Shown: one piece after another, positions 1-15,208 of the stretch
Position numbering within the stretch: position 1 is the first letter of the stretch
Layout: every line of letters starts with the position of its first letter
NCBI GenBank assembly: GCA_903870235.1
Contig: CAIQCA010000072.1
Coordinates: 1 to 15,208 of the forward strand
DNA length: 15,208 nucleotides
Direction: 5' to 3'
DNA from: an uncultured bacterium
GTDB lineage: Bacteria; Patescibacteriota; Minisyncoccia; Phycocordibacterales; PALSA-1337
Program-made: the position numbers and the translations under genes
Notes under the pieces: model-generated
What the model was told of the DNA's origin: nothing
Databases searched by the model: none
The model's input: the letters and a program-made list of their open reading frames with translations, nothing else

Positions 1-211
1 CACTATTGAAGTCACCTGTTACAACTGAATAAGGATTGGAACCTGTAGAATAGTCAACTTTAGTAGCAAATGTACCATCACCATTATTCAAATATACGGA
101 AACCGTATCAGATGCACCGTTTGCGACAACCAAATCCAATTTTCCGTCTGCATTAAAATCACCACCGGCAACCATACGAGGATTAGAGCCGGCCGCATAA
201 TTATAAATAGA
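1..211 (-). repeat. Start of a second FG-GAP array, cut by window edge
   Basis: DFNADGKLD is encoded near 158 and GDFN again at the edge near 11, 147 bp apart as in the first array. The super-module of block plus FG-GAP array is therefore repeated at least once more beyond the window. Confidence 0.9.
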
Positions 212-3200
212 TTTCACTGTAGAAGAAGCCGTACCTTGGAATGTACCAGCTGTTATAGTGGTAGTACCAGCAGCAAAAGTTAGAGCCCCAGTTGTTGGAC
301 CGTTCACTGTTGCATTCGCCCCATTTAATGTCAGCATTGGCAGTATTGCTCCACCACCAGCCAACTTCATACTCCTAGTTCCCGCCCCAGACACAACTAT
401 CTGTCCTGTACCACCATCGAAAAGTGGTGTGTTGGACATAGTTCCAGCAACACTGATAGTACCAGCAGCCGGTACGGTGGCCTGAGAGACTAGACCATCG
501 ACAAGAGAGAGGTTTCCGTTTACAACCAAGGTGTTACTGTTGGCCACAGTCAAAGCAACGGCAGTAGTTTTTGAAATAACTAAGTTATAGAAAGATTCTG
601 AGGTGTTGACTGTCCAAGTAGCGGCCGCACCAGTAGCTATAACTGTTCCATTGTTATGATTGAAGGTGCCGGCAACTGTATGAGAATAGTTACCAGGGAT
701 AATGAGATTACCACTCGTAGAAGTCATGGTACCACCAGTCAAGTTGATAGCACCAGACATGGTGATGTTGTTTGTACCACCATTGAATGATCCCCCGTTT
801 TGAGTGTAGGTACCAGTAAGAGATATACCAGTTCCACCACCATTGAAGGCTCCCCCCGAAACAGTAAGTGCTGGAATAGTTAAGCTTGGTAGAAGATTAC
901 CGAAGGTGCCATCACCGTTGTTTAGGTAGACTGAAGCATAAACTGCTCCAGAATTAGCTATAACTAGGTCAGGCTTACCATCATTATTGAAATCAGAACT
1001 CACAACTGCAGCCGGACCTGATAGAGTTGCAAAATCCAGCTTAGGGGCAAATGTTCCATTACCATTGTTTGTAAATATAGATACTGTAGCCGAGCCACTA
1101 TTGGTTACGGCCAAATCTGCTTTACCATCACCATTGAGGTCAACAGATGAGACAAAGGATGGATTTGTTCCTGTAGTATAATCAACTTTTGTAGCAAATG
1201 TTCCATTACCATTGTTCAGGAAGATTGAGACGGTGGCTGAACTATTGTTAGGTACTGCCAAATCTAACTTTCCATCGCCATTGAAATCATTAGTCACAAT
1301 AGAGAAAGGGGCAGAGCCTGTCGCATAATCAACCTTTGAAGCAAAAGTACCATCACCATTGTTCAATAATATTGAAACTGTATTGGACATATAGTTAGGC
1401 AGGGCCAAATCTAGTTTTCCATCACCATTGAAATCTCCAACCGCAATCGCGTATGGATTTGACCCAGTAGTGTAATCAGTCTTAGGAGCAAAAGTACCGC
1501 TACCGTTGTTTAGAAAAACTGAAACTGATGCCGCACCACTATTTGCGACGATTAGATCTAATTTTCCGTCACCATTGATATCTACTGGAACTACTGTTTT
1601 AGGAGTCCCGGCTGTAGGATAGTCAACGTTTGTAGCGAAAGTTCCGTCACCATTATTTTTGTAAATAGAAAGGATATTTGTCGACTGTCTGACCACAGCT
1701 AAATCAGGTTTTCCATCACCGTCAAAATCTCCAGCCGTAACTGACATAGGAAATGATCCTGTCGCATAATCAACCTTTGAAGCAAACGTACCATCACCAT
1801 TATTCATAAACACAGACATGGTGCTTGATGAACTATTGGCTACGACAAAATCTTGTTTTCCATCGCCATTGAAATCTCCAACTGCAATAGAATACGGGCC
1901 AGTTCCGGTCGTATAAGTCCTAACCACCTTTGCTGTACTCGTCGCCGCTCCTTGGAATGTTCCAGCTTGAACCATAGTGGTAGAACCAGCGGCAAAAGTA
2001 AGAGCGCCGGTTACCGGGCCATTGACTGTTGCTCCAGCTGAGTTCAAAGTCAGGTTCGGTAATGTAGCGCCGAGACCAGAGAGAGTCATTGTTCTGGTGT
2101 TTGCTCCAGTGATCACAATCTGTCCAGTACCACCATCAAACAAAGGCGTATTCGACATAGTTCCCTGCACATTTATTGTGCCGGTTGTAGGTATAGTAGT
2201 CTGGGAGATCATGCCGTCGTTAAGGGCCAAGTTCCCTGTAACGATCAAGGTGTTGCTGTTGGCCACAGTCAAAGCAACCGCAGTGGTCTTGGAGATAACC
2301 AGGTTATAGAAGGTATCCGTGGAACTAGCAGTCCAAGTAGCCGCCGCACCAGTCGCTATAACAGTTCCATTATTGTGGTTAAATACTCCACCGGCCGTGT
2401 GTGTCCAGTTACCTACTATGTTCAAGTTTGCAGAAGTAGATGTAAATGTACCGCCAGCCAACGTGAATGCCCCACCTACAGTAATATTGTTAGTACCACC
2501 AGTGAAGGTACCCGAGTTGGTAAGTGCACCAGCCACAGACAATGTTCCATTTCCACCTATATATGTAGACGAGCTAGTGAAGTTACTGGTGACAGTTGTG
2601 GAGAGACCCGCATTGAATGTACCTCCGTTCAAGATAAGGTTACCGGCAATCACTGGCGATGAGCTGGCCGTAAAGGTTCCACTATTGATCAAATTGTTGG
2701 TTACAGTCAGAGGATAAGGAGCGTTGACGACAGTAGGAGTACTCGTACCAGCGGCGAGAGCTGAGATTTCACCAGAGGTTAAGGCACGGTTGTAGATACG
2801 GACATCGTCTATGGAGCCAGCGAAGTAACTTGTAAACGTAGAATTGTTTGTATTATAATTTGCCCCTATTACACTTCCATAAGTAGCCGTGGACATTGTT
2901 CCGTTTCCAATACCATTACCATTTGGGATAAGACTACCAGAGCTATCCAAAACACCGTCTATATAAAATGAAACCATTTTGTTAACATACACCATAGATA
3001 CATGATGCCAAGCATTATCGGTTAGTCCCCTTGTTCCGATAAAATAGCTATAGTGCCCACTATCAGTCGAGCCGTAGAATTTCAATTTGTTTGCAGTTGT
3101 TTCAACATAAAAAGCCCATCCAGCTTGCGGTGATTGTATCCACGAATCATTAATAATACTGTATGTTCCCAACGTACTGGACGCCTTTATCCAAGCTGAA

Positions 3201-6200
3201 GTAGAAAAAGTTCCCGTGCTGTTAAAATTAAATAAATTTCCTGGTCTTACATACTGACTACTCCCATTAAACGTCAGCGCATTCGGATCCGAAAAAGTTA
3301 TCGCCGAAGGTACTGACGACGTAGGAACTGGATTACCAACCCAACTACCATTACCACTTAAGCCGGTTGCGTCCACTGCTTGGGGTGAATTGTTAAGTTT
3401 CCACCACCCAACTAAGGCGGAGTCTACTGCACCTTGTACCCCTGTCGCCAAAGTGGCCACCTCACCACTCGACAAAGCACGATTGTAAACTCTGACGTCT
3501 TGCATTAAGGATCCGGCCGTAGTGTTTTCTGGGTCTGCGAAAGTAAGAGTCTGTGTACCAGAAATAGGGGCAGTAAATGTTCCTGCCGTACTTGTAGTAA
3601 CTGCAACACCGTCTACATACAAAGTGTAGTGACCGAAGCCGGATACTCCATCCCATGTTCCTACGATGTGATGCCAAGCATTATCGGTATAGGTTGCGTT
3701 AGATAATATATTTCCAGAATCATTACCCATTCCAAACTTACCGGTAGTTGTGTAATACAAAGCATATCCCTTGGCGCTTGGTTGTCGTTGTAATAAAAGT
3801 AGGTTAACTGGTGGTGCTACACCGTTATTTTTGTACCACAATGAGAGAGTATATGCGCCAGTGATATTTAACGATGGTGAGTCAGCAACTGTGATGCCGT
3901 TCTGTGCTAGGTATGGAATACTGATAGATGCAGCACCGGGAATGTATGTGATAGTGGGACAAGATGCAGCAGCAGTATATCCTGACAAAAACGTACCAAT
4001 ATTACTATTCCCTGAACTATCAATCGCGGTCGTCGTAGCTTCATCAAGTTTCCAGTTAGCGATCATACCAGTCGAAGGACCGTATGAAGTCGAGGTCATG
4101 GTGTTGAATACATTTCCAGAATTGATGACAAGGTTGTAGAAAGTAGAGTTACTATTCAAGATGACACCACCTGTTGTCTGATTCACGGTTGTAGTTCCGG
4201 CCACTGGTACATACGTGTTCGAATAGTTCGTGATACCAGATCCATTGAAGTTCAAAAGGGTTGGAGTGAACGTACCGTTGGTTTGAATAAAAGATGAGTT
4301 GGCACCAACCAAGTTCCATGTCGTGGCCGTTGCCGTGCTGAGAACTGGTGTGGCCGTACCACCTTTTATGATAGAAATATTCCCTGGCACCGTATAAGAA
4401 GTCGTTGAAGCGATATTCCAAGTATGTGTAAATGCACCACCACCAGCTGTGGTCTGCACGATAAGCGAACCAACATAATTCAGTCCACCATTAAACGTAG
4501 ATGCGTAGCTGGCTGTGTCTGCTGAGGTCAAGACCACATTGTTGAATACCGTGCTACCCAAAGTTCTGGTCATGTTGAGGTTCGTGTCATTGAAAATCGT
4601 TGTGTTAGAACGGAACAAAATAGTTCCAAGATTGAGTAGATAATTGTTTATCGTGAGGCTGTATGCCGTTGTTCCACCATCCGGAGAAGTGTCGAGCGTC
4701 TGGCCAGCATTAACTGTGAGGTTATAGAAAGTGCTGTTACCAGTAAGATCTGCACTCTGACCGATAGTAGTAGTACCAGCTGTAGCGGTGCCACCTAGGT
4801 TTATCCACGCTGTGCCGGTACCACTAAATGTAATATTACCGGTTAGAGTAGAAGTGGAAACACCAAACAAAGTCTGACCAGCTCCGGTAAATGTGGCATT
4901 GCTTGCAAACGTACCACCTAAAAGATTTACACTAGTCACATTTGCACCAAAAGTTGGACTAGCAAAATACGTACCACTTATATAGTTAAATGATTGTCCA
5001 GCTGCACCATATGTAACGCCAGCGATACCATTGATAGCTGAGCCGTTCAAAGTCAGTGACTTTCCGGCACCAGTGAGAGCAAGTGTCGTATTTGCATTAC
5101 CAAATGCACCAGTTGATCCGAGGACCACATTCCCAGCGATAGACAAAGTTGTCACACCAGCAGGAGGAGTCACTATACCGCTAGCACCAGTAGAAGTAAT
5201 AAAGTTTCCACCAAACGTATTACAGCCGGAAGCGAGAGTGAAAACATAGTTAGCTGCCATGCTTAACTGAAGGCTGCCTGGAAAAGTACCGGTACACGCG
5301 AAGGTTTGAGCAACGTTGCCATTGAAGATCAAAGTTTTTCCCGTGGTATCAAATGTACCATTTTGCGTAAAGCCACCACCGGCATATATTGTCACTCCAG
5401 TATAAGTAGTAGTAGCTCCCGCGGAGTTCACAAAAGACACGTTGTTTCCAAAGGTCCAACCAGAACCGTTGTGTGTGATGGTGCCATTGTTTGTATTCGT
5501 CGTTGCGTACGTTGCCGTGTTAACTATCCATGTCTGTCCTGCTGGAACGGTCATTATTCCATTGTTCACAAAGCCGACACTAGCGATACCACCAACAGCC
5601 CATGGAGCGGAGGTATCAACGACTATGGAACATCCTGAGGATACAGTAAAGGCGCCAGCGGAAAGAGTATCTGCGACCCTAACTAGACCTCCAAGACTTC
5701 CAGAACAAGTCAGTGTTGTGATTTCAGAAGAGGTATTGAAAATCACTGTTATACCAGAAAGATTAAACGTACCGCTTTGCGTGAAGCTGCCACCGATAGA
5801 CAAAGTTGTGCCAGAATAATTAACAACACCAGAAGAAGAGTTAGTAAAGCTGTTTCTATTTCCGAATGACCATCCTGTACCATAATTATTTATCGTACCG
5901 TTGTTAGTATTAACGATGGTGTAAGTTGGGACACCTATATTCCATGTCTGTCCTGCTGGAACGGTCATTATTCCATTGTTCACAAAGCCGACACTAGCGA
6001 TACCACCAAAAGTCCACGGCACAGAAGTGTCCACAGTCACGGAACAGTTAGTCGAAATAGTGAAAGCACCAATCACACCAGACATCGTGGCCCTAACTGT
6101 TCCAGGAAAGTTACTGGCACAAGTGAGCCCAACACCACTGACATTCCCCGTAAATATCGTCACTCCAGTCATCCCACTAAAGGTTCCGCTTTGGGTGAAG

Positions 6201-8098
6201 CTACCGCCGATGACCAACAACGCACCAGAATAATTCAATGTCGCGCCAACATTGTTCGTGAGGTTGCCAGCAATACTAAGTGTCGCACCGGTACCCCAGT
6301 TTATAGTACCGGAGTTTATGAGGTTCGAAGAAAGAGTGGTAGTTCCGACGAGGTTTGGAGAATTGATCACCGCTCCAACATTATTGGTAATACCATTGAC
6401 CGACCACGCGGTTCCGTTGTTATTGACTGTGCCATTATTTGTAAATACGGCGCTACCATTTATAGACAATGTTCCTGAAGTAACACCCATCGTTCCGTTG
6501 TTCGTTAGTATACCGACAATGCTAGGATTAGCGCCGAAGTTTACAGTACAGCCGGAACCTATATTAAATGAGTATGTATTTGAGCCCAAACTAACAACCA
6601 AGACACCTGGATATGTACCGGTACATGCGATGGAAGTACTTCCACCATTACCAGCACCAGTGTATGTCGTGGTACCGGTGAAATTGAAAGTACCATTTTG
6701 TGTTATTACGTTTGTTGAACCTTCTGATATGGTGGCATTGGAAGCTGTGAAATTTATCACACCACCTGAATAGTTTGTGAAGGCATAGCCTCCACTACCA
6801 AGATTCCACGTCGTTCCATTATGATTTATCGTGCCATAGTTGAGGATAGAACCTGAAACCTCAGTCCAAGTACCACCAGCAAGAGTAAATGTGGCTCCGA
6901 CATTGTTTGTGATGGTGTAATATAGAGGATTGGTGATGCCACTACCATTATCTGTGACTATACCGTTGTTAGTGAAAAATGATGACTGGCTTCCCATGGT
7001 CCACAAACCAGAATCTACGACCACGGTTCCATTATTTATAACAGAACCACTTGTGGTTGGACTAGCCCCGAGGTGTATAGTACAGCCATAATCAAGTGTA
7101 AAAATATTCGCGTATGAACCAGTATTGATCACGACAGTTCCAGGATATACACCTGTACAAGTAGTAGTACCCGAACCCTGATTTGTAGTACCTGAGAAGT
7201 TGAACGTTCCAGCTATAGTTGCGATAGTGCCGTTTGAAAAATTTAGTGCGGCTGCAGTGCCATCGTAAGTTATCACGCCGCCAGCATAGTTTGTAAAATT
7301 GTAGGCACCGCCACTCATGTTCCAAACAGTTCCATGGTTATTTATAGTACCGTAGTTCAAGAGGTTACCAGCAAAAATCGTCCACGTACCGGCAGCAAGA
7401 GTAAAATTGGCACCGACATTGTTTATGAAACTTGTATAACTATTTGTAGTAATACCACTACCGTTGTCGGTAACTGTGCCGTTATTAGTGAAGTCTCCAC
7501 GACCCTGGGTCCAAAGCCCGGAATCTATAATAATAGTTCCGTTGTTAATAAAGGTTCCACTAGTAGTAAAACCTGCTCCAGTATGGATAGTACAACCGCT
7601 ATTGATAGTGAACGTATATGCTTGTGAACCAGTGACTATAGTCGACACTACTCCAGGAAATGTACCCGTACAGGTTAAGCCACCATTCCATGTGTTGGTC
7701 AAAGTCGTCGTTCCATTTCCTGTAAATGTTCCACCTAGAATAGAGATGAAGGCACTACTGGTCGGAAAATTCATAGTCGACGACAGAGTGATCGTTCCAG
7801 AATATCCAGAGGTCACCGACAATGACGCGGCAGTGAAAGGAGCATCTATCTTTGCATTTGTGTTTCCGCCACCATCAAAAATAACTGCATCGGCTGCCGT
7901 AGGTATTCCCGCGCCTCCTGCACCACCAGTATTCGCTGACCAGTTGGCTGCGGAGTTCGTGCTACCGTTGGCCGGACCAACCCAATATCTGGCAGCAAAA
8001 GTATTTTTAGAAAAAACAGTTAAAGATACGAAAAACAAAATAAAAAATAAAAGTGGTTTCAGTGCAGATTTTATTTTGAATGATTTGAAGAAATTCAT
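1..8098 (-). CDS. Giant secreted LamG/FG-GAP repeat surface protein, 3' end cut by window edge
   Basis: One frame runs from ATG at 8098 to the left edge without a stop: 2,699 complete codons. I checked the frame at several distant points and found it continuous. Modules in order: signal peptide (1-36), YWVG/NWS module (37-75), six cysteine-pair modules (about 100-960), a Thr/Asn/Gly-rich stretch (960-1343), two LamG-like domains (1343-1553 and 1561-1784), then two copies of a solenoid block plus FG-GAP array. The composition is rich in Thr, Gly, Asn, Ser and Val and poor in charged residues and cysteine, as in extracellular beta-solenoid proteins. Such domain mixtures are known in adhesins and glycan-binding proteins. 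It lacks any catalytic motif I recognise. The cell anchor would be in the missing C-terminus. It begins 20 bp after the short prepilin, so co-expression with the pilus is likely. The ATG has only a weak AAGAAA upstream, but the signal peptide supports it. Confidence 0.93.
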   Translation of the reverse strand, partial: MNFFKSFKIKSALKPLLFFILFFVSLTVFSKNTFAARYWVGPANGSTNSAANWSANTGGAGGAGIPTAADAVIFDGGGNTNAKIDAPFTAASLSVTSGYSGTITLSSTMNFPTSSAFISILGGTFTGNGTTTLTNTWNGGLTCTGTFPGVVSTIVTGSQAYTFTINSGCTIHTGAGFTTSGTFINNGTIIIDSGLWTQGRGDFTNNGTVTDNGSGITTNSYTSFINNVGANFTLAAGTWTIFAGNLLNYGTINNHGTVWNMSGGAYNFTNYAGGVITYDGTAAALNFSNGTIATIAGTFNFSGTTNQGSGTTTCTGVYPGTVVINTGSYANIFTLDYGCTIHLGASPTTSGSVINNGTVVVDSGLWTMGSQSSFFTNNGIVTDNGSGITNPLYYTITNNVGATFTLAGGTWTEVSGSILNYGTINHNGTTWNLGSGGYAFTNYSGGVINFTASNATISEGSTNVITQNGTFNFTGTTTYTGAGNGGSTSIACTGTYPGVLVVSLGSNTYSFNIGSGCTVNFGANPSIVGILTNNGTMGVTSGTLSINGSAVFTNNGTVNNNGTAWSVNGITNNVGAVINSPNLVGTTTLSSNLINSGTINWGTGATLSIAGNLTNNVGATLNYSGALLVIGGSFTQSGTFSGMTGVTIFTGNVSGVGLTCASNFPGTVRATMSGVIGAFTISTNCSVTVDTSVPWTFGGIASVGFVNNGIMTVPAGQTWNIGVPTYTIVNTNNGTINNYGTGWSFGNRNSFTNSSSGVVNYSGTTLSIGGSFTQSGTFNLSGITVIFNTSSEITTLTCSGSLGGLVRVADTLSAGAFTVSSGCSIVVDTSAPWAVGGIASVGFVNNGIMTVPAGQTWIVNTATYATTNTNNGTITHNGSGWTFGNNVSFVNSAGATTTYTGVTIYAGGGFTQNGTFDTTGKTLIFNGNVAQTFACTGTFPGSLQLSMAANYVFTLASGCNTFGGNFITSTGASGIVTPPAGVTTLSIAGNVVLGSTGAFGNANTTLALTGAGKSLTLNGSAINGIAGVTYGAAGQSFNYISGTYFASPTFGANVTSVNLLGGTFASNATFTGAGQTLFGVSTSTLTGNITFSGTGTAWINLGGTATAGTTTIGQSADLTGNSTFYNLTVNAGQTLDTSPDGGTTAYSLTINNYLLNLGTILFRSNTTIFNDTNLNMTRTLGSTVFNNVVLTSADTASYASTFNGGLNYVGSLIVQTTAGGGAFTHTWNIASTTSYTVPGNISIIKGGTATPVLSTATATTWNLVGANSSFIQTNGTFTPTLLNFNGSGITNYSNTYVPVAGTTTVNQTTGGVILNSNSTFYNLVINSGNVFNTMTSTSYGPSTGMIANWKLDEATTTAIDSSGNSNIGTFLSGYTAAASCPTITYIPGAASISIPYLAQNGITVADSPSLNITGAYTLSLWYKNNGVAPPVNLLLLQRQPSAKGYALYYTTTGKFGMGNDSGNILSNATYTDNAWHHIVGTWDGVSGFGHYTLYVDGVAVTTSTAGTFTAPISGTQTLTFADPENTTAGSLMQDVRVYNRALSSGEVATLATGVQGAVDSALVGWWKLNNSPQAVDATGLSGNGSWVGNPVPTSSVPSAITFSDPNALTFNGSSQYVRPGNLFNFNSTGTFSTSAWIKASSTLGTYSIINDSWIQSPQAGWAFYVETTANKLKFYGSTDSGHYSYFIGTRGLTDNAWHHVSMVYVNKMVSFYIDGVLDSSGSLIPNGNGIGNGTMSTATYGSVIGANYNTNNSTFTSYFAGSIDDVRIYNRALTSGEISALAAGTSTPTVVNAPYPLTVTNNLINSGTFTASSSPVIAGNLILNGGTFNAGLSTTVTSNFTSSSTYIGGNGTLSVAGALTNSGTFTGGTNNITVGGAFTLAGGTFTSTSANLNIVGNWTHTAGGVFNHNNGTVIATGAAATWTASSTDTFYNLVISKTTAVALTVANSNTLIVTGNLALNDGMISQTTIPTTGTINVQGTMSNTPLFDGGTGQIVITGANTRTMTLSGLGATLPNLTLNSAGATVNGPVTGALTFAAGSTTMVQAGTFQGAATSTAKVVRTYTTGTGPYSIAVGDFNGDGKQDFVVANSSSSTMSVFMNNGDGTFASKVDYATGSFPMSVTAGDFDGDGKPDLAVVRQSTNILSIYKNNGDGTFATNVDYPTAGTPKTVVPVDINGDGKLDLIVANSGAASVSVFLNNGSGTFAPKTDYTTGSNPYAIAVGDFNGDGKLDLALPNYMSNTVSILLNNGDGTFASKVDYATGSAPFSIVTNDFNGDGKLDLAVPNNSSATVSIFLNNGNGTFATKVDYTTGTNPSFVSSVDLNGDGKADLAVTNSGSATVSIFTNNGNGTFAPKLDFATLSGPAAVVSSDFNNDGKPDLVIANSGAVYASVYLNNGDGTFGNLLPSLTIPALTVSGGAFNGGGTGISLTGTYTQNGGSFNGGTNNITMSGAINLTGGTMTSTSGNLIIPGNYSHTVAGTFNHNNGTVIATGAAATWTVNTSESFYNLVISKTTAVALTVANSNTLVVNGNLSLVDGLVSQATVPAAGTISVAGTMSNTPLFDGGTGQIVVSGAGTRSMKLAGGGAILPMLTLNGANATVNGPTTGALTFAAGTTTITAGTFQGTASSTVKSIYNYAAGSNPRMVAGGDFNADGKLDLVVANGASDTVSVYLNNGDGTFATKVDYSTGSNPYSVVTGDFNS
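212..894 (-). repeat. Solenoid block A, second copy of the duplicated super-module
   Basis: Residues about 2402-2629, homologous to block B. One codon differs in length (ITAGTF here against MVQAGTF in the other copy), which shifts the offset from 1,716 to 1,719 bp. It links the first FG-GAP array to a second. Confidence 0.85.
895..1918 (-). repeat. FG-GAP/VCBS array of seven units with exact 147-bp period
   Basis: The first Asp of the DFNGDGKLD motif is encoded at 1874, 1727, 1580, 1433, 1286, 1139 and 992: seven units, each exactly 147 bp (49 codons) apart, without any insertion or deletion. Each unit also holds a VSIFLNNGDGTFA-type motif. The motif D-x-N/D-G-D-G-x-x-D matches the calcium-binding loops of FG-GAP repeats. 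Seven units suit a complete seven-bladed beta-propeller. Confidence 0.93.
1919..2746 (-). repeat. Solenoid block B, first copy of the duplicated super-module
   Basis: Residues about 1785-2060. The part between about 1928 and 2525 is homologous to 212-806, at an offset of 1,716-1,719 bp. Shared peptides include VFNHNNGTVIATGAAATWT (as TFNHNNG... in the other copy), FYNLVISKTTAVALTVANSN and MSNTPLFDGGTGQIV. The DNA is clearly diverged between copies, apart from short runs such as the one at 2260-2278. Confidence 0.85.
2747..3418 (-). other. LamG-like (concanavalin-fold) domain 2
   Basis: Residues about 1561-1784, directly after the first LamG domain. Hallmarks: ALVGWWKLNNSPQAVDATG, FSTSAWIKASS, DNAWHHVSMVYVNKMVSFYIDG, and DDVRIYNRALTSGEISAL. 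It is clearly of the same family as domain 1 but differs in most residues, so the tandem is old or was built from different sources. Confidence 0.9.
3440..4069 (-). other. LamG-like (concanavalin-fold) domain 1
   Basis: Residues about 1343-1553. Hallmarks of the Laminin_G_3 jelly-roll family: IANWKLDEATTTAIDSSG at the start, DNAWHHIVGTWDGV, HYTLYVDGVAV and the closing QDVRVYNRALSSGEVATL. Such domains bind glycans or proteins outside cells. One Cys (1380) has no obvious partner. Confidence 0.88.
4070..5221 (-). other. Thr/Asn/Gly-rich solenoid stretch before the LamG domains
   Basis: Residues about 960-1343 of the giant protein. It contains short beta-type motifs such as TFTGAGQTLFG, GSTVFNNV, STFYNLTVNAGQTLDT and STFYNLVINSGNVFNT, but no cysteines that I found and no known catalytic motif. 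The repeated FYNL motif also occurs in the later duplicated blocks, so this stretch is related to them. Confidence 0.6.
5527..5595. repeat. 69-bp perfect direct repeat, copy 2
   Basis: This is the second copy of the 5941-6009 repeat, in the fifth cysteine-pair module. The 414-bp distance equals 138 codons, the exact spacing of the cysteine pairs of modules 4 and 5, so the reading frame is kept. Confidence 0.95.
5941..6009. repeat. 69-bp perfect direct repeat, copy 1 (N-terminal side of the protein)
   Basis: This segment is identical to 5527-5595 over all 69 bases, 414 bp away. It encodes GGIASVGFVNNGIMTVPAGQ and flanking residues in the fourth cysteine-pair module. Flanking DNA diverges at once on both sides. 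Confidence 0.95.
7874..7990 (-). other. N-terminal YWVG...NWS...VIFDG module of the giant protein
   Basis: Directly after the signal peptide comes RYWVG, then AANWSANTGGAGGAGIPTA and DAVIFDG (residues 37-76). I recognise this combination as one that recurs at the mature N-terminus of large repetitive surface proteins. Its function is not known to me. It precedes the first solenoid module. Confidence 0.6.
7991..8098 (-). other. Signal peptide of the giant protein
   Basis: Residues 1-14 are basic (K5, K8, K10, K14), residues 15-29 are a Leu/Phe-rich core, and NTFAA at 32-36 offers a signal peptidase I site after residue 35 or 36. There is no Cys at the cleavage point, so it is not a lipoprotein. 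This predicts Sec export. Confidence 0.85.
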
Positions 8099-8118
8099 TT
8101 TCTTGAAAACGTCACACT

Positions 8119-8343
8119 CTAATTTACTCCATTCGAACTTTGTACTGCTTCCAAAACTTTGTTGGTAATAAATCTTCCATTGTCATTTACTTCCTGCCAA
8201 GCTTGTATCTTACTACTACTGTTAACACCATTGAATATGAATCCTCCAATAAAAGACAAGATAATGGCTAAAATAGCCACATAGATGACAACTTCGATTA
8301 GAGTAAAGCCACTATTCTGTGTTTTTTGAGCTTTAAACACCAC
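8119..8343 (-). CDS. Very short prepilin (N-terminal helix only)
   Basis: This is a 74-residue protein starting with GTG (8343; a second GTG at 8340 is equally possible). The leader MVFKAQKTQNSG is followed by cleavage between G12 and F13, giving FTLIEVVIYVAILAIILSFIG with Glu at mature position 5. The sequence then continues for about 40 residues of amphipathic helix and stops with TAG. Related minor pilins of these genomes usually continue past this point into a beta-domain of 80 or more residues, so the protein is either truncated or a naturally minimal pilin. I see no frameshifted remainder, because the giant gene starts 20 bp after the stop. In-frame sequence upstream of the GTG has no ATG before a stop near 8401. 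Confidence 0.75.
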   Translation of the reverse strand: MVFKAQKTQNSGFTLIEVVIYVAILAIILSFIGGFIFNGVNSSSKIQAWQEVNDNGRFITNKVLEAVQSSNGVN

Positions 8344-8346
8344 CGT

Positions 8347-8352
8347 ATTATA
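8347..8352 (-). promoter_or_regulatory. TATAAT element at the short prepilin gene
   Basis: The minus strand reads TATAAT ending 4 bp before the first GTG (8343) of the short prepilin. A start 7 bp downstream would fall at the second GTG codon (8340), which would make the transcript leaderless. There is no clear -35 hexamer or TGn extension. It could drive the short prepilin and the giant gene. Confidence 0.35.
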
Positions 8353-8407
8353 GCAAAAAGCGTCGAAAATAGTAGCGAAAATATTGAGCGTGGGGATAGT
8401 CTATGCG

Positions 8408-8965
8408 TCAATACCACTGACCATTTATATTTACAACTTTTTTGGTAGTTGTTCCCGTGTTTCTATCAGAATATATGATAATCACACTATTGGCATCCTT
8501 GATCCAAACAGAGCTTGGCATCAACATTTGGTCTGGTGTAGGCATAACCATAGTCTGGAGCATATGCTGTGACAAAGAAATCAAATCTGCATCGGTCTTA
8601 TTGGTAACAAGTGTTTTTTCGGCTAGTGAACTTGCTTTGGCTGTCATATATGCTCTGATAGCTTTTACGTCCTTTGAAGCCATGATCTTATATCCAGAAA
8701 GTAATGCTATATATATGGCCTTCTTTTCGGTGGCTGAAATATCGCTAGAACTTGCCGGATCTACAGGCGCATTGAAATCTATCTTACTCAAATCTACATC
8801 GAAGGCGGACACACCAGCCGGGATGACTTGCATGGTGGATGTGACAACGGAAGATTTCTGACGGATCTTGACCACGACAATTATGGCAACGATGACTACA
8901 ATCACAATAATGGCAATCAGGATTATTTTATTTTTTATATTTTTCTCTGGTGGGATAGTATCCAT
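8408..8965 (-). CDS. Single-pass membrane protein of unknown function in the pilus operon
   Basis: This 185-residue protein is not one I recognise. A short basic N-terminus (MDTIPPEKNIKNK) is followed by a strongly hydrophobic segment at residues 14-32, rich in Ile and Val, then KIRQK, which predicts an N-in signal anchor with about 150 residues outside. There is no prepilin motif (no G-F with Glu at +5), so it is not a pilin. The outer domain has a helical part (78-140, with SATEKKAIYIALLSGY and AIRAYMTAKASSLAEK) and ends in beta-like segments, VWIKDANSVIIIYSD and KKVVNINGQWY. That ending recalls small NTF2-like or assay-type domains, but this is only a resemblance. There are no cysteines. 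It sits between two minor pilin genes on the same strand and ends with TGA. A pilus-assembly accessory role is inferred from position only. Confidence 0.8.
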   Translation of the reverse strand: MDTIPPEKNIKNKIILIAIIVIVVIVAIIVVVKIRQKSSVVTSTMQVIPAGVSAFDVDLSKIDFNAPVDPASSSDISATEKKAIYIALLSGYKIMASKDVKAIRAYMTAKASSLAEKTLVTNKTDADLISLSQHMLQTMVMPTPDQMLMPSSVWIKDANSVIIIYSDRNTGTTTKKVVNINGQWY

Positions 8966-8972
8966 ATTTTTA

Positions 8973-8979
8973 TTCCTTT
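8973..8979 (-). promoter_or_regulatory. Ribosome binding site of the membrane protein gene
   Basis: The minus strand reads AAAGGAA about 8 nucleotides before the ATG at 8965. It is the clearest Shine-Dalgarno-like site in the window, and it supports this start. Most other genes here lack one. Confidence 0.6.
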
Positions 8980-9037
8980 ATGATAACTGTAATTCAAAAA
9001 TTAATCTAGCTATGTCATAACGCAAGACATACATACT

Positions 9038-9571
9038 CTATGGTCCAGGCTGACGCCAATTAGTTAAAACAGTCGTCAAAGTTACTACTTCATTTACACT
9101 GCGCGCATTCATCCAAGAAACCGTGCTGGTCGCTATGGCGGTCGATGTACTAGTAAAATTACTGGACGGATTTAGTGTGATAGTGATAGATCGGAAAAAT
9201 TTTACGTCAACAATATCGGAAGTTGAGGCGGCAAAGACCCAACCGAAACCACCAGGACCAGATGCAAGTCCGTGTGCGCCGGAAATTATCAGATTTGAAA
9301 ATCCAGAATCACGAATAGATGTCACAGCTTCGATTCCCTCTCGCGCAATCAAGATAGCTTCCGACTTATCTAGATCAGATCGAGTAGACGTGTTGGCATC
9401 GATCAACATCTTTCCCGCGACGATAGAACCGATAGAAAATATGGCAATAGCCAAAACCAATTCCATCAGACTGAAACCGCGCATATTATTTTCCCTTACA
9501 ATACTATTTTTTCCGGCGGAGTTGTTTTTATTTGATTTGTGCATATAAATTTCAGATATCAACATTTTCAT
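9038..9571 (-). CDS. PilV-like minor prepilin
   Basis: This is a prepilin of 177 residues from the first ATG. The prepilin signal is MRGFSLMELVLAIAIFSIG, with cleavage expected between G32 and F33 and Glu at mature position 5. I kept the ATG at 9571 because it directly follows the TAA of the FimT-like gene, but Met10 (9544) would give a more usual leader of 23 residues, and Met30 (9484) a very short one. The segment ILIAREGIEAVTSIRDSGF is typical of PilV/GspI-type minor pilins found beside FimT-like ones. The rest is Ser/Thr-rich, with the IRDSGFSNL motif near residues 91-99. It ends with TAG 72 bp before the next gene. Confidence 0.78.
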   Translation of the reverse strand: MKMLISEIYMHKSNKNNSAGKNSIVRENNMRGFSLMELVLAIAIFSIGSIVAGKMLIDANTSTRSDLDKSEAILIAREGIEAVTSIRDSGFSNLIISGAHGLASGPGGFGWVFAASTSDIVDVKFFRSITITLNPSSNFTSTSTAIATSTVSWMNARSVNEVVTLTTVLTNWRQPGP

Positions 9572-10051
9572 TTAATTTTGCACGATGGTGCCAAAACTAT
9601 CAACCGTCAAAGTCCTCATAAGCCCATTCCAGATTATCGATACTGTACCTGTCGCTGTCGGTTTACCAGTATGCTTAGCAAAACTTATTTCCGTGGAGGA
9701 GGCTGGCAAATAGACTATCGTATTTCCTAAGACTTGGTAGGATTCATCGTATGAAGTGTTGTGAGACGAACATGCCGCACCAGCTGCACCTTTGTACAAA
9801 ACAAAAGTCTGTGTATAAATACCGTTTTGGTTCAAACAAATTCCATATTGATCATCTCCCTTTTGTGCGACTGACTGGCTACGCGCGCGTGTGAGAGTGT
9901 CGCCGATTTGGCCTTGTATACCTGCAATAGTCTGACCATTGTAAAACTGCAATCCGAGAGGTGCTGTTACGAGCGACACGACCATGATCACAGCCAAAAC
10001 TATTATCACCTCTAGGATAGTAAAACCTCTGCGGGAAAAGCCAGGATTCAT
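9572..10051 (-). CDS. GspH/FimT-like minor (pseudo)pilin
   Basis: This is a complete 159-residue prepilin. The leader MNPGFSRRG is followed by predicted cleavage between G9 and F10, giving mature FTILEVIIVLAVIMVVSLV with Glu at mature position 5. The segment GDTLTRARSQSVAQKGDDQYG (50-70) is typical of GspH/FimT proteins, in which the helix ends with a region near 'LARSxA' before the beta-domain. Two cysteines (72 and 94) could form a disulfide in the globular domain. Minor pilins of this type prime pilus assembly or sit at the tip. Its TAA stop abuts the ATG of the next prepilin with no spacing, which suggests translational coupling. Confidence 0.82.
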   Translation of the reverse strand: MNPGFSRRGFTILEVIIVLAVIMVVSLVTAPLGLQFYNGQTIAGIQGQIGDTLTRARSQSVAQKGDDQYGICLNQNGIYTQTFVLYKGAAGAACSSHNTSYDESYQVLGNTIVYLPASSTEISFAKHTGKPTATGTVSIIWNGLMRTLTVDSFGTIVQN

Positions 10052-10060
10052 AATAAATGA

Positions 10061-10069
10061 ATTATAACA
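10061..10069 (-). promoter_or_regulatory. Extended -10 element just upstream of the FimT-like gene
   Basis: The minus strand again reads TGTTATAAT, identical to the element before the major pilin. The expected transcription start is only about 3 nucleotides before the ATG at 10051, so a transcript from here would be nearly leaderless. It lies in the 40-bp gap after pilC. It may provide separate expression of the minor pilins and the downstream giant gene. No clear -35 hexamer is visible. Confidence 0.4.
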
Positions 10070-10091
10070 TAAACTATGGCTACATCTATAA

Positions 10092-11144
10092 CTAGTTTAT
10101 GCTTCCAGTGAGTTTATAGATCGGCAAGATGATAGCTAGAGCCAACGTTGCCACAGCAACACCGATAAGCACCAGGAGGACTGGCTCGATAACAACCGGC
10201 AAGCGTTTGGTCTTGATGTTTATCTCTTTTGAATAATAATCAGCCAAATTGGCGAATGATTCTTGTAAAGACCCAGAATTCTCACCGACAGACAAAAGGT
10301 TAACAAAGTTGGAAGGATACAGGATTGGATACAATTTCACAGTTTCCGTTACAGAAACTCCGTTTAGCAATCTGGCTCTGATGTCCATCAAAGCTTTCTT
10401 ATAATATGAATTCCCTGTACCAACAAAGGCAATCTCCAGAGACTCATCTACTGTGAGTCCAGATTTCAAAAGTGTGGCCATGAGTTGACTGAAAAGAGCC
10501 AATTGGTAATCACGGATCATGTCACCAGCCAGAGGTGCGTGCATAAGGAATCTGTCCATGACTGATTTTACCAATGCCAATCGTTTGAGTACTTGGAAGA
10601 AAATGTATAGCACGATCAAACCCAATATAACCGCTGGCCAGTATACTTGTAAAAACACAGAGGCATTCAAAATAAATTCTGTTATCCACGGTAGCTGGAC
10701 GTGTAGACTTGTGAACATTGGTACCAGCTTCGGCAAGATAAATACTGATAGTCCACCGCCAAGGATGCCTGTTGCGCCGATAACCAACTTCGGATACAAA
10801 GTCACTGAACTGATTTCTTTACGTAGGTTACTATCACGACTAAGCCAGTCGGCCAAGAAATCCAAATTTTCTGGTAATGAACCCGAAACTTCACCGGCAC
10901 GTACCAAGCTAGTGACAACTTTTCCGAACATACTGTTACTGTTGGCCATGGCGGTATACAACGATACTCCTTTGGCAAGGTGACCACTAATATCCATGAG
11001 TGTCTTTTTGAGATTTTTGGATCGAGCCTGATTGGCTAGAGAAATGATGGCTTCGTCGATAGACACGCCTCCACGCAAAAGCACAGACAAGTTTTTTGCA
11101 AACTCAACCTGATCTTCTAGTTGTAGGGTTGACTTAAAGGTCAT
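10092..11144 (-). CDS. pilC: PilC/GspF-type pilus platform protein
   Basis: This is a complete 350-residue inner-membrane platform protein. Two T2SSF repeats are visible, about residues 13-136 and 213-336, each with a matching motif: GEVSGSLPENL at 84-94 and GENSGSLQESF at 287-297. Membrane segments are predicted near 117-142, 165-188 and 318-342. The protein couples the PilB ATPase to pilin extraction and assembly in the membrane. The length is somewhat short compared with the usual 400 or so because the N-terminal cytoplasmic extension is small. It follows pilB by 32 bp and ends 40 bp before the FimT-like gene. Confidence 0.95.
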   Translation of the reverse strand: MTFKSTLQLEDQVEFAKNLSVLLRGGVSIDEAIISLANQARSKNLKKTLMDISGHLAKGVSLYTAMANSNSMFGKVVTSLVRAGEVSGSLPENLDFLADWLSRDSNLRKEISSVTLYPKLVIGATGILGGGLSVFILPKLVPMFTSLHVQLPWITEFILNASVFLQVYWPAVILGLIVLYIFFQVLKRLALVKSVMDRFLMHAPLAGDMIRDYQLALFSQLMATLLKSGLTVDESLEIAFVGTGNSYYKKALMDIRARLLNGVSVTETVKLYPILYPSNFVNLLSVGENSGSLQESFANLADYYSKEINIKTKRLPVVIEPVLLVLIGVAVATLALAIILPIYKLTGSIN

Positions 11145-11176: not shown

Positions 11177-12871
11177 TTAGTTCGTAAGACCTAGTATTTC
11201 TTCGAAGGTAGTTAAACCTTTGAAAACTAGACCGACACCATTGTAGAACATAGTAATCATACCATTTCCTGCAGCTTTTGCCTCTATAGAGGAAGCTGAT
11301 GATTTCTTGATCACAAGGTCACGTATATCGTCATCAATTTCCATAACTTCAAATATACCCATACGGCCAAGATAACCAGTGTGATTGCAGTTTTTACATC
11401 CAGTACCTTTATATAGTTTCAAATCTTCTATGCGTTGGCCCGGGAAATGTCTGGTCATCAAGGTCTTGAACTCTGGTTCATCTTTGATCCTTTTTATCTC
11501 CGACAAGTTTTCTGGATGTGGTGGATACAAAATCTTGCAATAAGAACAAATCTTGCGTACCAATCTCTGAGAGATAATCACGTTGACAGAAGACGCCACC
11601 AAGAAAGGTTCCACACCCATCTCTGTGAGACGCGGGAAAATAGTAGCAGCATCGTTGGAGTGCATGGTCGACAAAAGCATGTGACCAGTCATAGAAGCAT
11701 TGATAGCGATTGAAGCTGTTTCATTGTCACGGATTTCTCCGACCATGATCACGTCCGGGTCCTGACGAACGATCTCGCGTAGACCGTTAGCAAAAGTAAT
11801 ATTCTTTTTGGCATTTACCTGAATCTGCTGAACCTTCGTTACACTATATTCTACTGGATCTTCGATGGTGACGATGTTTATCGGCAGCTGGTTCAACACC
11901 AGCATGATCGAATAAAGTGTGGTGGTCTTACCAGCACCAGTAGGTCCAACCACAATGATCATACCGTAAGGTTTATCTATAGCGCGCTTAACCTTCTCCA
12001 AATCTTCGTCGAGAAGTCCGAGGTCTTCTAGAGCCATCTTCCTGGATTTCTCCGAGAGGATACGCATCACGATATTTTCCCCATGAGTGATCGGCAAGAT
12101 AGAGACACGCACATCGAACTTAACTTTATCTTTCGTATAATCGAAACGACCGTCCTGTGTGGCGTCTTGCTCATCTGTACGCAAGTGAGACATAATCTTT
12201 ATTCTCGACACTACTGGGCGATGCATGTCCATCGGGTATTTGGAAACTTCATACAAAGTACCGTCGATACGGAAACGCACAGAAACAAACCCATCGTAAG
12301 CCGGTTCCAAGTGTATATCCGACGCGTAGTTCTCATAGGCATAGTCCAGAAGACGCTCAACTAGAGCCACTGGACTGCTTTCGTTCTTGTTCACCTCATA
12401 ATCTTCGATAAGGTCCTTAACAGTCTTATATATATTGTCTTTGTAATTTTTGAATGCTTCGCGCATACCAAAAGGTGTAGCATAGTAAACTACAACTTTT
12501 CCTTTATTGATCTTTACCAACGAATCGATAAACTCAATATTATTGGGGTCAATAATAGCTAGGCTTATGTCAGCACCTTCTTTAGCAAAGATAACAGCAC
12601 CCTGAGAACGCGCCACAACCTCGGGCAGAATTTCAAAAGCCTCGTTATCAACTCCTTGCTCATTGATATCTACAAATGGTACACCGTATTCTCTAGCAAT
12701 AAGTTCTCCCAGATCACGATCCTGGATTTCTCCACGTTCAACCAAAGATATTTCTACTGATTGATTGAGTTTATCAGCATCTTCAGCGGCCGCCTTAAAG
12801 CGAAGCTCATCTATATGACCTTTGGAAACAAGTAATTCCTTTAGCTTTTCTCGATCATATGAGAGTGACAT
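11177..12871 (-). CDS. pilB: PilB/GspE-type pilus assembly ATPase
   Basis: This is a complete 564-residue secretion-type AAA ATPase that powers pilin polymerisation from the cytoplasmic face of the membrane. Residues 1-150 form an MshEN/T2SSE N-terminal region. The core carries SDIHLEP (184-190), Walker A GPTGAGKTT (309-317), the Asp box VTIEDPVEY (334-342), Walker B DVIMVGEIRD (373-382) and the His-box region TGHMLLSTMHSNDA (395-408). A zinc-binding tetracysteine is present as CSYC (442-445) and CKNC (492-495). The tetracysteine and N-terminal domain mark an assembly (PilB/GspE) ATPase rather than the retraction ATPase PilT. All catalytic motifs look intact. Upstream is the major pilin (11-bp gap) and downstream is PilC (32-bp gap). 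No convincing Shine-Dalgarno site precedes the ATG. Confidence 0.96.
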   Translation of the reverse strand: MSLSYDREKLKELLVSKGHIDELRFKAAAEDADKLNQSVEISLVERGEIQDRDLGELIAREYGVPFVDINEQGVDNEAFEILPEVVARSQGAVIFAKEGADISLAIIDPNNIEFIDSLVKINKGKVVVYYATPFGMREAFKNYKDNIYKTVKDLIEDYEVNKNESSPVALVERLLDYAYENYASDIHLEPAYDGFVSVRFRIDGTLYEVSKYPMDMHRPVVSRIKIMSHLRTDEQDATQDGRFDYTKDKVKFDVRVSILPITHGENIVMRILSEKSRKMALEDLGLLDEDLEKVKRAIDKPYGMIIVVGPTGAGKTTTLYSIMLVLNQLPINIVTIEDPVEYSVTKVQQIQVNAKKNITFANGLREIVRQDPDVIMVGEIRDNETASIAINASMTGHMLLSTMHSNDAATIFPRLTEMGVEPFLVASSVNVIISQRLVRKICSYCKILYPPHPENLSEIKRIKDEPEFKTLMTRHFPGQRIEDLKLYKGTGCKNCNHTGYLGRMGIFEVMEIDDDIRDLVIKKSSASSIEAKAAGNGMITMFYNGVGLVFKGLTTFEEILGLTN

Positions 12872-12882
12872 TTGTCAAAATA

Positions 12883-13443
12883 TTATCTAGAGACGCCGAT
12901 ATCACCGTCAACATTACCACCGGAAGTGACATTTTCTGTAAGAGGTGCACAGACAAGGACGCGACTGTTACTCAATGAGAGTTTTGCGATAAAATATCCA
13001 GTACCAGTTCCAGTCGAAGTCGCTGAAGGATCAGTCGGCATTGACGTAACATAAGACACCCCACCTTGAGTAGAAGTAGCTACATAACCACCAAGAGCAG
13101 CGAAACCGGAGCAAGTAGTAGCACTAGACTTACAAATTTCATTGGTTGCTGTAGCAGCTATCACAGCACAAGTAGTCGAAGCTGAAACATAGTGGTTGGT
13201 ACTGTCTATCGGTATTGCATTTGGAATAGTGCCATTGTTATCGATAACATACTGATAAACCGCACTCAAGATTGTAGCCACATCTGCCCTTCTTTGTGCG
13301 TTTCTAGCATCACCAAGTTGTTTAGCTGGGTTTATAGCGACGATAACGATACCTGCCAAGATCGCGATAATGGCTACAACAAGCAAGATTTCCAAAAGAG
13401 TGAAACCTCGTGAGTTAGCATTGGCGCGCATTTTTTTCATCAT
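12883..13443 (-). CDS. Type IV prepilin, probable major pilin
   Basis: This is a 186-residue prepilin. A basic leader (MMKKMRANANSRG) is followed by the class III signal with predicted cleavage between G13 and F14, giving mature FTLLEILLVVAIIAILAG with the invariant Glu at mature position 5. Residues 14-37 form the hydrophobic N-terminal helix that packs in the pilus core. The following NPAKQLGDARNAQRRADV segment is typical of pilins and GspG-like pseudopilins. The C-terminal region is Ser/Thr-rich with four cysteines (92, 104, 111, 165) and a MPTDPS...GTGY motif common in this pilin group. It is the first gene after the probable promoter and the longest pilin here, which is why I call it the likely main subunit. 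PilB starts 11 bp after its stop. Met2 or Met5 are alternative starts. Confidence 0.85.
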   Translation of the reverse strand: MMKKMRANANSRGFTLLEILLVVAIIAILAGIVIVAINPAKQLGDARNAQRRADVATILSAVYQYVIDNNGTIPNAIPIDSTNHYVSASTTCAVIAATATNEICKSSATTCSGFAALGGYVATSTQGGVSYVTSMPTDPSATSTGTGTGYFIAKLSLSNSRVLVCAPLTENVTSGGNVDGDIGVSR

Positions 13444-13574: not shown

Positions 13575-14327
13575 TTACTCCCCAATCATTCCAGCAATGA
13601 TTTTCTTGGTCTCTTCCGGACCACTTACCTGCATACAGTCAATTCCGGTGGATTTTGCCGGATAGTCGTTTCCACCATGGAAAAGAGTATCACCGATAAA
13701 AATCATATGATCGAGGGGCATATGCAAAAATTCTTCCAATTTACGAATTCCGTAAGCTTTGTTGACACCTTTCATGGTTATATCAACAGATGTTGAGCCA
13801 CCGACACGTACATCAAATCTCGGTAGCTTCTCTTTTAAGATTTCCGCTATTTGCTGTCGTTTCTCTCTAGTGGGATCCCATGCTTCCTTCAAATCTAATG
13901 GTGCCTCTTGTCCCAAGCCAGAAAATGTTATTTGAGATCCACGATCTTCAATAAGCGGTCCATATGTTTTTTCTGGCTTTTCGAATTTTACTATAGAAAG
14001 AGCCATGTTCAATTTTTCTATAATATTTTTTCTGTCATTCTCAGCAATGTTTTCCGCATACTGCTCATGCCATTCGCCACGCCAAACGTATAATCTTGTT
14101 CCAGAAGTTGGTAATAAAAACAAATTCGTGAATCTCTGCCCTTCGATCGGTAATTTACTTAAAAATTGAGTTTGAAATTGAGGATAGCCACCGCCGGAGA
14201 TAACCGCCACCTTCTTTTTGGCCAAAAGAAATATTATTAACTTGGCCATCTCATCATCTAAAACGGATTTGCTGGCCGCGAGCGTGCCATCTAAATCGAA
14301 TATTATAAGTTCTTTTTGTTGATTCAT
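13575..14327 (-). CDS. HAD-IIB family hydrolase, phosphomannomutase-like
   Basis: This is a complete 250-residue protein from ATG to TAA. HAD motif I is FDLDGTLA at residues 10-17, with D11 as nucleophile and D13 as general acid/base. The motif II region is SGGG at 44-47, K190 is a candidate motif III lysine (in GVNKAYGI), and motif IV is IGDTLFHGGND at 211-221. The segment VGGSTSVDITMKGVNK (175-190) and the GDTxxxGGND motif resemble the eukaryotic-type phosphomannomutase branch of HAD-IIB, and the length matches that family (about 245-250 residues). The likely reaction is mannose 1-phosphate to mannose 6-phosphate in the cytoplasm, but a sugar-phosphate phosphatase role is also possible. It follows the GH130 gene by 33 bp on the same strand, so the two are probably co-transcribed. 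No clear Shine-Dalgarno site precedes the ATG. Confidence 0.82.
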   Translation of the reverse strand: MNQQKELIIFDLDGTLAASKSVLDDEMAKLIIFLLAKKKVAVISGGGYPQFQTQFLSKLPIEGQRFTNLFLLPTSGTRLYVWRGEWHEQYAENIAENDRKNIIEKLNMALSIVKFEKPEKTYGPLIEDRGSQITFSGLGQEAPLDLKEAWDPTREKRQQIAEILKEKLPRFDVRVGGSTSVDITMKGVNKAYGIRKLEEFLHMPLDHMIFIGDTLFHGGNDYPAKSTGIDCMQVSGPEETKKIIAGMIGE

Positions 14328-14360: not shown

Positions 14361-15208
14361 TTACGTTCGCAATTTATTTAACAAATCTTCCAGACTTATC
14401 GTAGCTACACCGATAACACTATCAGCGGCTCCATAATATATATAGACGGTGTTTTTTCTAACAATCAAACTACAAGGAAATACTATATTTGGTACAAGAC
14501 CGTTTTTTTCATAGCTTTCCTCCGGCTCAAAAACTGGTACAGCTGTCCTGGCTTTCACCATGGTTGGATCTTTCAGGTCCAACAAGACTGCACCAACACG
14601 ATATTTTTTGCTTCTAGAAACTCCATGGTACAGAAGAAGCCAACCTTGTTTTGTCTTTACTGGAGGTCCAGCGATACCAACTTTGACACCGTCCCACATC
14701 CCTGGACGTGGATTCAAGATTTCTATACATCTTTTTATTTCTTCTTTTGCGAAATCCAGAGAAGTAATATAATCCGCACAAATACTATCATTGACTCTAT
14801 GGATAACTAAATATTTTCCATCTATTGCCTGAGGCAAAATAACTGCGTCCTTATTTGGAATATTGGCGGGAGTTATCACTCTTGGCATGGACCAAGCACT
14901 CCAACGTCTATCTATAAAATCATGAATGGTTATGAAACTTACAGCCACTCTAGGAGTCACACCATCATAGGCCGTATAGGTCATATAAAGCTTATCTCCT
15001 ATAATGACAATTCGTGGGTCTTCACAGCCATAGTTGGCGTTTGAACCAGGCCTGTATTCAAAGTCCGCACGTGGAAAATATATCGGCTTATCTAGCCGTT
15101 CGTCTATAGTAAATCCGTCACTACTAACCGCGAAACCGAGAACTGAAACATTGGAAGAAGAAGCACCCCTATAGATGATATAAGTTTTATTATTTATATC
15201 TACTGCGG
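14361..15208 (-). CDS. GH130-family mannoside phosphorylase or mannosidase, 5' end cut by window edge
   Basis: The frame is open from the right edge and ends with TAA at 14363-14361, giving 281 visible residues. An internal ATG at 14984 is not the true start, because family-typical sequence continues upstream of it to the edge. The fragment carries GH130 signatures: IIYRG near residue 10, GCEDPRI at 60-66, YMTYTAYDG from about 74, then NKDAVILPQAIDGKYLVIHR and later GWLLLYHGVSRSKKYRVGA, LLDLKDP and IYYGAADS. In this family the Asp of the EDPR motif (visible residue 63) is the catalytic acid. GH130 enzymes are five-bladed beta-propellers of roughly 310-340 residues, so about 30-60 N-terminal residues are probably missing. 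Members phosphorolyse or hydrolyse beta-linked mannosides in the cytoplasm. I cannot assign the subfamily, hence phosphorylase versus hydrolase is open. The next gene, a phosphomannomutase-like HAD protein 33 bp downstream, favours the phosphorylase reading. Confidence 0.88.
   Translation of the reverse strand, partial: AVDINNKTYIIYRGASSSNVSVLGFAVSSDGFTIDERLDKPIYFPRADFEYRPGSNANYGCEDPRIVIIGDKLYMTYTAYDGVTPRVAVSFITIHDFIDRRWSAWSMPRVITPANIPNKDAVILPQAIDGKYLVIHRVNDSICADYITSLDFAKEEIKRCIEILNPRPGMWDGVKVGIAGPPVKTKQGWLLLYHGVSRSKKYRVGAVLLDLKDPTMVKARTAVPVFEPEESYEKNGLVPNIVFPCSLIVRKNTVYIYYGAADSVIGVATISLEDLLNKLRT

Follow-up and report, generated by a model that had tools for sequence, protein, structure and literature searches.

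The window analysed here (the whole stretch of DNA, 15,208 bp) spans contig C72 from end to end; the contig belongs to a genome bin of 0.89 Mb that is 75% complete. The window carries a type IV pilus operon on the minus strand. Its first genes, for a pilin, PilB and PilC, are followed by those for two minor pilins, for a protein of 185 aa and for a 74-codon prepilin; the last gene, directly after this short minor-pilin gene, encodes a giant secreted protein. The pilin (12883-13443) is, by its family matches, the probable major pilin; it is followed by the PilB/GspE extension ATPase (11177-12871; PilB, E 1.5e-146) and the PilC/GspF platform protein (10092-11144; GspF, E 2.5e-69), both of these matches falling short of the equivalog cut-off. 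The H-like (9572-10051) and I-like (9038-9571) slots of the two minor pilins were inferred from operon order, and the 185-aa protein (8408-8965) has an N-terminal hydrophobic stretch and matches no family above cut-off. Close relatives aside, the best named matches of PilB belong to Patescibacteria such as Candidatus Wolfebacteria, Jacksonbacteria and Veblenbacteria, which suggests a patescibacterium of the Parcubacteria type. Beside the operon, also on the minus strand, lie a HAD/phosphomannomutase-like gene (13575-14327) and a GH130 mannoside phosphorylase-like gene (14361-15206; E 4.6e-58); neighbours of these types were also seen at three other loci (L032, L033 and L036).

The giant gene (8098-2, minus strand) is one uninterrupted open frame of 2,699 codons without a stop, as a previous sequence-only reading of this DNA had stated; since the window is the complete contig, the gene is truncated by the contig end and not by a stop codon. 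That reading had also described a signal peptide, a cysteine-pair solenoid, LamG domains and FG-GAP repeats, and each of these was recovered. The N-terminus, MNFFKSFKIKSALKPLLFFILFFVSLTVFSKNTFAARYWVG, reads by eye as a Sec-type signal peptide (residues 1-36, positions 7991-8098, ending in NTFAA and followed by RYWVG), and relatives have similar signal ends followed by YWV or YWI starts. A T/G/N/S-rich region, read as a beta-solenoid of six modules (residues ~37-1300, positions 4199-7990, approximate limits), houses all six cysteine pairs (143/169, 314/339, 492/517, 660/685, 798/823 and 935/959), with 24-26 residues within a pair and 137-178 residues from module to module; a thirteenth cysteine, Cys 1380, is partnerless within the known piece. 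Further on are a first LamG-like region, for which Pfam is among the bases (residues ~1330-1560, positions 3419-4111, approximate), a second LamG domain of the Laminin_G_3 family (residues 1611-1779, positions 2762-3268) and an FG-GAP propeller (residues ~2068-2400, positions 899-1897). The last part, which reaches the contig edge (residues 2425-2698, positions 2-826), is a copy, at 68% identity, of the solenoid and propeller start at residues 1853-2126; because this block of ~275 residues is duplicated, a second propeller starts right at the contig end.

The profile search that the sequence-only reading had proposed for Laminin_G_3 and FG-GAP matched both families: FG-GAP_3 in nine stretches (E 1.8e-88), FG-GAP in eight and Laminin_G_3 in two (E 1.1e-38). 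A match to the TafC family fimbrial protein (NF052521) was rejected, as it covers the LamG part only and reaches 48 bits versus the more than 410 bits needed. The PilY1 family is absent from the Pfam and NCBIfam matches of the giant, whose own C-terminal part is incomplete. The structure prediction proposed for each module was carried out for residues 1-634, where the AlphaFold model is all-beta with a mean pLDDT of 71 (moderate confidence); the assignment of the solenoid relies on the cysteine positions and on this segment, and the top PDB matches found with Foldseek are beta-helix adhesins that do not reach significance (Antigen 43, E 0.04). Taken together, the sequence supports the earlier description of a giant secreted protein that is probably adhesive. 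The module content given by that description was correct, but the tail of the pilus operon, the short open reading frame upstream and the pilin-like C-terminus described below had been missed.

In an ordinary pilin, a beta-sheet head domain packs on the alpha-1 helix. The 74-codon gene (8343-8119, minus strand) encodes the first part of such a protein: it has a class III prepilin motif (G|FTLIE), a hydrophobic alpha-1 helix bearing Glu5 and an N_methyl match above cut-off (E 1.2e-7), and it stops after EAVQSSNGVN. On a profile of intact pilins it corresponds to positions 1-63 and ends there, and the globular beta head is absent from the polypeptide. We call it the stalk and regard it as the N-terminal half of a split minor pilin. 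The gspJ model matches the stalk pilin through the helix only (E 0.0016, far below cut-off).

The other half was found at the far end of the giant. The earlier proposal to recover the full gene from a longer contig was overtaken by the window being a whole contig already; however, contig C21 of the same genome (G000) holds a 316-aa C-terminal sequence of the same family, open at the contig edge, and the order there is pilin-head C-terminus, a pilin lacking Glu5, and PilM (identified by Pfam). Judged by sequence, the C21 frame is presumably the end of the window's giant gene, with the link between the two contigs made by homology to relatives alone, as the giant is not whole in G000; if both parts belong to the same gene, the protein has at least 3,015 aa. 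The C-termini of two relatives, P0014 (3,620 aa) and P0057 (2,636 aa), consist of a beta-sandwich followed by ~100 residues resembling the second half of a pilin. A search for this end in the genus recovered it in three of 34 genomes (G006, G022 and, on C21, the genome of the window). The sequence-only reading had proposed to look for a C-terminal anchor such as a sortase motif, a membrane helix or a cell-wall domain; C21 and those relatives that have a C-terminus terminate in the pilin head and have neither an LPxTG nor a membrane-helix ending; no LPxTG/N motif occurs in the window part of the giant. The anchor thus appears to be the missing pilin head.

To place both halves on one scale, we used a profile HMM with 162 positions, built from 21 intact pilins. 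The C-half profile A1 had served to collect these pilins, which makes the set dependent on the C-half; the match of the stalk is independent. The stalks of all eight genomes match positions 1-63 (1-61 in G119). The last 135 residues of the secreted relatives match from positions 53-72 to positions 157-162 in 31 of 31 cases (28 distinct by their last 100 residues; three loci are also present in the protein database), with scores between 24.1 (G425) and 77.4 bits. The controls remained far lower, at no more than 4.3 bits for 118 other giant proteins and no more than 6.6 bits for 950 shuffled C-halves. Stalk and secreted C-terminus thus tile one pilin nearly without overlap: they are homologous to two parts of a full-length pilin and are encoded by separate genes, contiguous in G119 and G425 and on two contigs in G000. 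Profile A1 also matches prepilins across the order: at E<=0.5 it finds them in 72 of 397 genomes, where the low-scoring matches are doubtful and the stronger ones are frames of ~156-213 codons. Profiles A1 and A5 were trained on members of the family, and their E-values for members are not independent. In the structural model of a 398-aa member, the head region is mostly confident, and no pilin is among the fold matches listed, which are filled by one domain. If the giant were an ordinary surface adhesin, with the pilin operon and the pilin-like C-terminus being coincidental or the latter a general beta-domain, its LamG, FG-GAP and beta-sandwich modules would be unexceptional, since such modules are common and the beta-sandwich occurs in other giants without the head; the absence of the head match from all 118 other giants, together with the operon slot and the neighbouring stalk, makes this explanation quite improbable.

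The arrangement recurs. Among the eight genomes searched, all have the stalk and seven have the head; in G031, the head was not found, and its giant gene exits the contig. In a sample of 397 genomes of the order, the secreted head is present in six (G000, G022, G119, G296, G379 and G425), and the split arrangement occurs in at least three families. In G119 (on a contig of 143 kb) and in G425, the stalk, the giant, a Glu5-less pilin and PilM are contiguous (PilM identified by Pfam in G119, as on C21). In G379, the only gene between those of an I-like and a Glu5-less pilin is the 74-codon stalk; the head protein (405 codons) is encoded on a different contig. G296 likewise has its head on a separate contig, and its stalk is fused to DUF2341 and LamG. 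A Glu5-less pilin comes next in all seven split genomes looked at, and in G119, G425, G379 and G296 the split pilin lies between H/I-like pilins and this K-like pilin, that is, in the J slot. The stalk of G022 is not adjacent to PilB.

Short frames were also surveyed with a stalk profile of 69 positions, with matches listed down to ~E 1.4e-8 in the 397-genome sample. Among the matches listed, frames of at most 110 aa that cover at least 60 of the 69 positions occur only in genomes with a secreted head (five of six, the sixth being G296 with its fused stalk), and all frames of at most 110 aa come from these five genomes, G170 and G427 (110 aa, at a contig edge). The frame in G170 (L237, 9786-10022, minus strand; 79 codons, 47 of 69 positions) lies beside PilC-like and PilB-like genes; no head was found in G170, where the frame may be one more short pilin or the product of a frameshift. 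The window's own genome contains, on contig C64, a second J-like pilin frame of 79 codons (L190, 1405-1641, plus strand; ending in SEMSIYNQVHETYDE), which matches 37 positions and overlaps the beginning of a further Glu5-less pilin (GFIATIS). No head was found in the 2.4 kb around this frame, which could be a truncated pilin or one more that consists of a stalk only; short J-like frames resembling it are present in G022 (C25) and G031 (C52). It should be noted that headless short frames (C64, G170) count slightly against the split reading, stalk-only pilins not being strictly tied to a head.

The junction between the two genes bears on how the halves are expressed. In the window, the giant starts 20 nt past the stalk stop and has its own signal peptide. 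The stop-to-start offsets at the stalk/giant junctions are 20, 9, 21, 34, 20 and -32/+4 nt, and the junctions include all three reading-frame relations and three different stop codons; this variation indicates that recoding is not a common mechanism. Stalk and giant are in frame across the stop in G031 and G022, which favours one modular pilin produced by frameshifting or stop read-through, but the diversity of frames and stops, the signal peptide retained by the giant and the head of G379 encoded on another contig render such an origin highly improbable.

A different possibility is that an unrelated giant-adhesin gene inserted into a pilin gene and destroyed it, the halves being relics and the adhesin working alone. 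G119 and G425 have both halves on one contig with the giant placed exactly between them, the window, G006, G022 and G031 are compatible with the same picture, and the C64 and G170 frames show that very short pilins without a known head exist. However, the ratio pN/pS is 0.055-0.143 for the stalk (six pairs), 0.20 for the head (one pair) and 0.08 for PilB, with synonymous sites saturated; given these low values, neither half looks decaying, and the purifying selection on both is at odds with relics. Moreover, three other members of the genus (G006, G022 and G031) share the stalk breakpoint of the window, the split is seen in at least three families of the order (G379 and G296 having the halves apart), and the head is kept with little cargo in 19 database proteins of 314-482 aa. 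We therefore consider the insertion scenario improbable.

What varies among relatives is the cargo. P0014 and P0057 have LamG without an FG-GAP match, and in P0057 LamG precedes the solenoid; the constant part is the signal peptide, the beta-sandwich and the pilin head. The order of modules in the window, previously reported as unfamiliar, is indeed so, but is secondary because the cargo differs between relatives. The 19 short database proteins (14 of them 389-402 aa) consist of beta-sandwich and head with little cargo; in 14 of the 19 the N-terminus resembles a signal peptide and leads into YW or FW, and the remaining five look partial or different. The beta-sandwich of the 398-aa member has no Pfam family match; its fold is that of the N-terminal domain of GH33 sialidases, and it is present in many other large patescibacterial surface proteins that lack the pilin head (L164-L178). 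Lectin-like modules were also observed on several tip pilins of one operon: the H-slot pilin of G379 (L211, 3988-6999, minus strand; 1,004 codons) is fused to LamG according to Pfam, and in G296 (L212, plus strand) the H-slot (6136-9804; 1,223 codons) and I-slot (9832-10947; 372 codons) pilins are LamG-like by eye. Directly after a J-like pilin of 156 codons (1495-1962, minus strand), G191 (L094) encodes another protein that is secreted and solenoid-like, with at least 501 codons; this is possibly an intermediate state.

Both halves of the pilin are present, tile, are co-inherited and are conserved. The explanation that we favour, and consider probable, is that the split minor pilin of the window is the J-subunit of an HIJK tip complex, in which the head, exported by Sec, bears the adhesin and attaches to the stalk. 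The stalk would be a pilin reduced to the prepilin peptide and the alpha-1 helix, processed by the prepilin peptidase and then incorporated in the tip complex. The giant protein would be exported by Sec through its own signal peptide, fold outside and dock through its head on the stalk's exposed alpha-1C, and the growing pilus would push the docked adhesin outward together with its cargo of beta-solenoid, LamG lectin-like domains and FG-GAP propellers. The docking, the position at the tip and the adhesion to a host cell or glycan are inferred.

Alternatively, the head could be a docking or export signal, the giant being a substrate of a T2SS-like pseudopilus tip that is released or left on the surface and is no permanent subunit. 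The HIJK complex of the T2SS is described as contacting secreted effectors directly (PMC10191384), and the giant has its own Sec-type signal. However, the stalk is headless in all eight genomes, which fits subunit replacement better than substrate recognition, and the Sec cargo of a monoderm should need no T2SS; we regard this alternative as unlikely, if less so than those discussed above. Returning to the split J-subunit, an extension of it is a plug-and-socket tip, in which one stalk accepts alternative Sec-exported heads, even heads encoded elsewhere (as in G379 and G296), as a host-recognition device of episymbionts; we give this extension a nearly even chance.

The closest known parallel is the major pilin of Geobacter, described as two proteins, PilA-N and PilA-C (GSU1496/GSU1497), split in the loop after alpha-1 and encoded by adjacent genes (PMC5174107, PMC10191384). 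Stalk and head are likewise two proteins here; the Geobacter stalk of known structure is 61 residues long. A Geobacter stalk is the best PDB sequence match of the intact-pilin profile (E 2.2e-6), through the general helix motif only (positions 5-44). Unlike the major pilin described for Geobacter, the split pilin here is a minor one, in the J slot and in Patescibacteria-like genomes, and its head forms part of a secreted protein of ~400 to 3,600 residues that is sometimes encoded elsewhere. PilB and PilC of Streptococcus sanguinis are reported to have an adhesive domain grafted on a minor pilin with a proposed place in the tip complex, with a concanavalin A-like domain in PilC (PMC9934059). 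Those modular pilins are described as single polypeptides with a class III signal, whereas here the module is on the separately exported head polypeptide only and not on a complete pilin; the LamG of G296 is on the stalk. The protein PilC/PilY1, presented as a very large tip protein on the HIJK complex and termed a non-pilin (PMC9934059, PMC10191384), is similar in its size and in the HIJK tip proposed here, but different in that no PilY1 family match was found.

Among Patescibacteria, Nanosynbacter lyticus TM7x is reported to have a minor pilin, PilX2, with a beta-propeller and no predicted PilD signal, the deletion of which lowers host binding (PMC12206443); PilX2 is depicted as lollipop-shaped with an extra C-terminal domain, and the available account describes no separate stalk gene, in contrast to the stalk gene here. 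The adaptable Kil tips of Myxococcus are part of a Tad system, and the available text on them does not mention a split pilin. In the portions available, reviews describe domains grafted on minor pilins, and they mention stick and head as separate parts only in the case of the major pilin of Geobacter; a search of open papers found no split minor pilin with a giant-adhesin head. If correct, the proposed arrangement would account for the way in which a pilus tip can bear a protein larger than 3,000 residues, exported and folded apart and docked afterwards, and would provide a concrete candidate for a host-binding protein in uncultured Patescibacteria-like bacteria: some tiny, probably host-dependent bacteria would make a pilus building block as two proteins, with the head bearing a giant adhesin. 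Split pilins and modular pilins are already known separately; the variant proposed here, which combines them, would be new.
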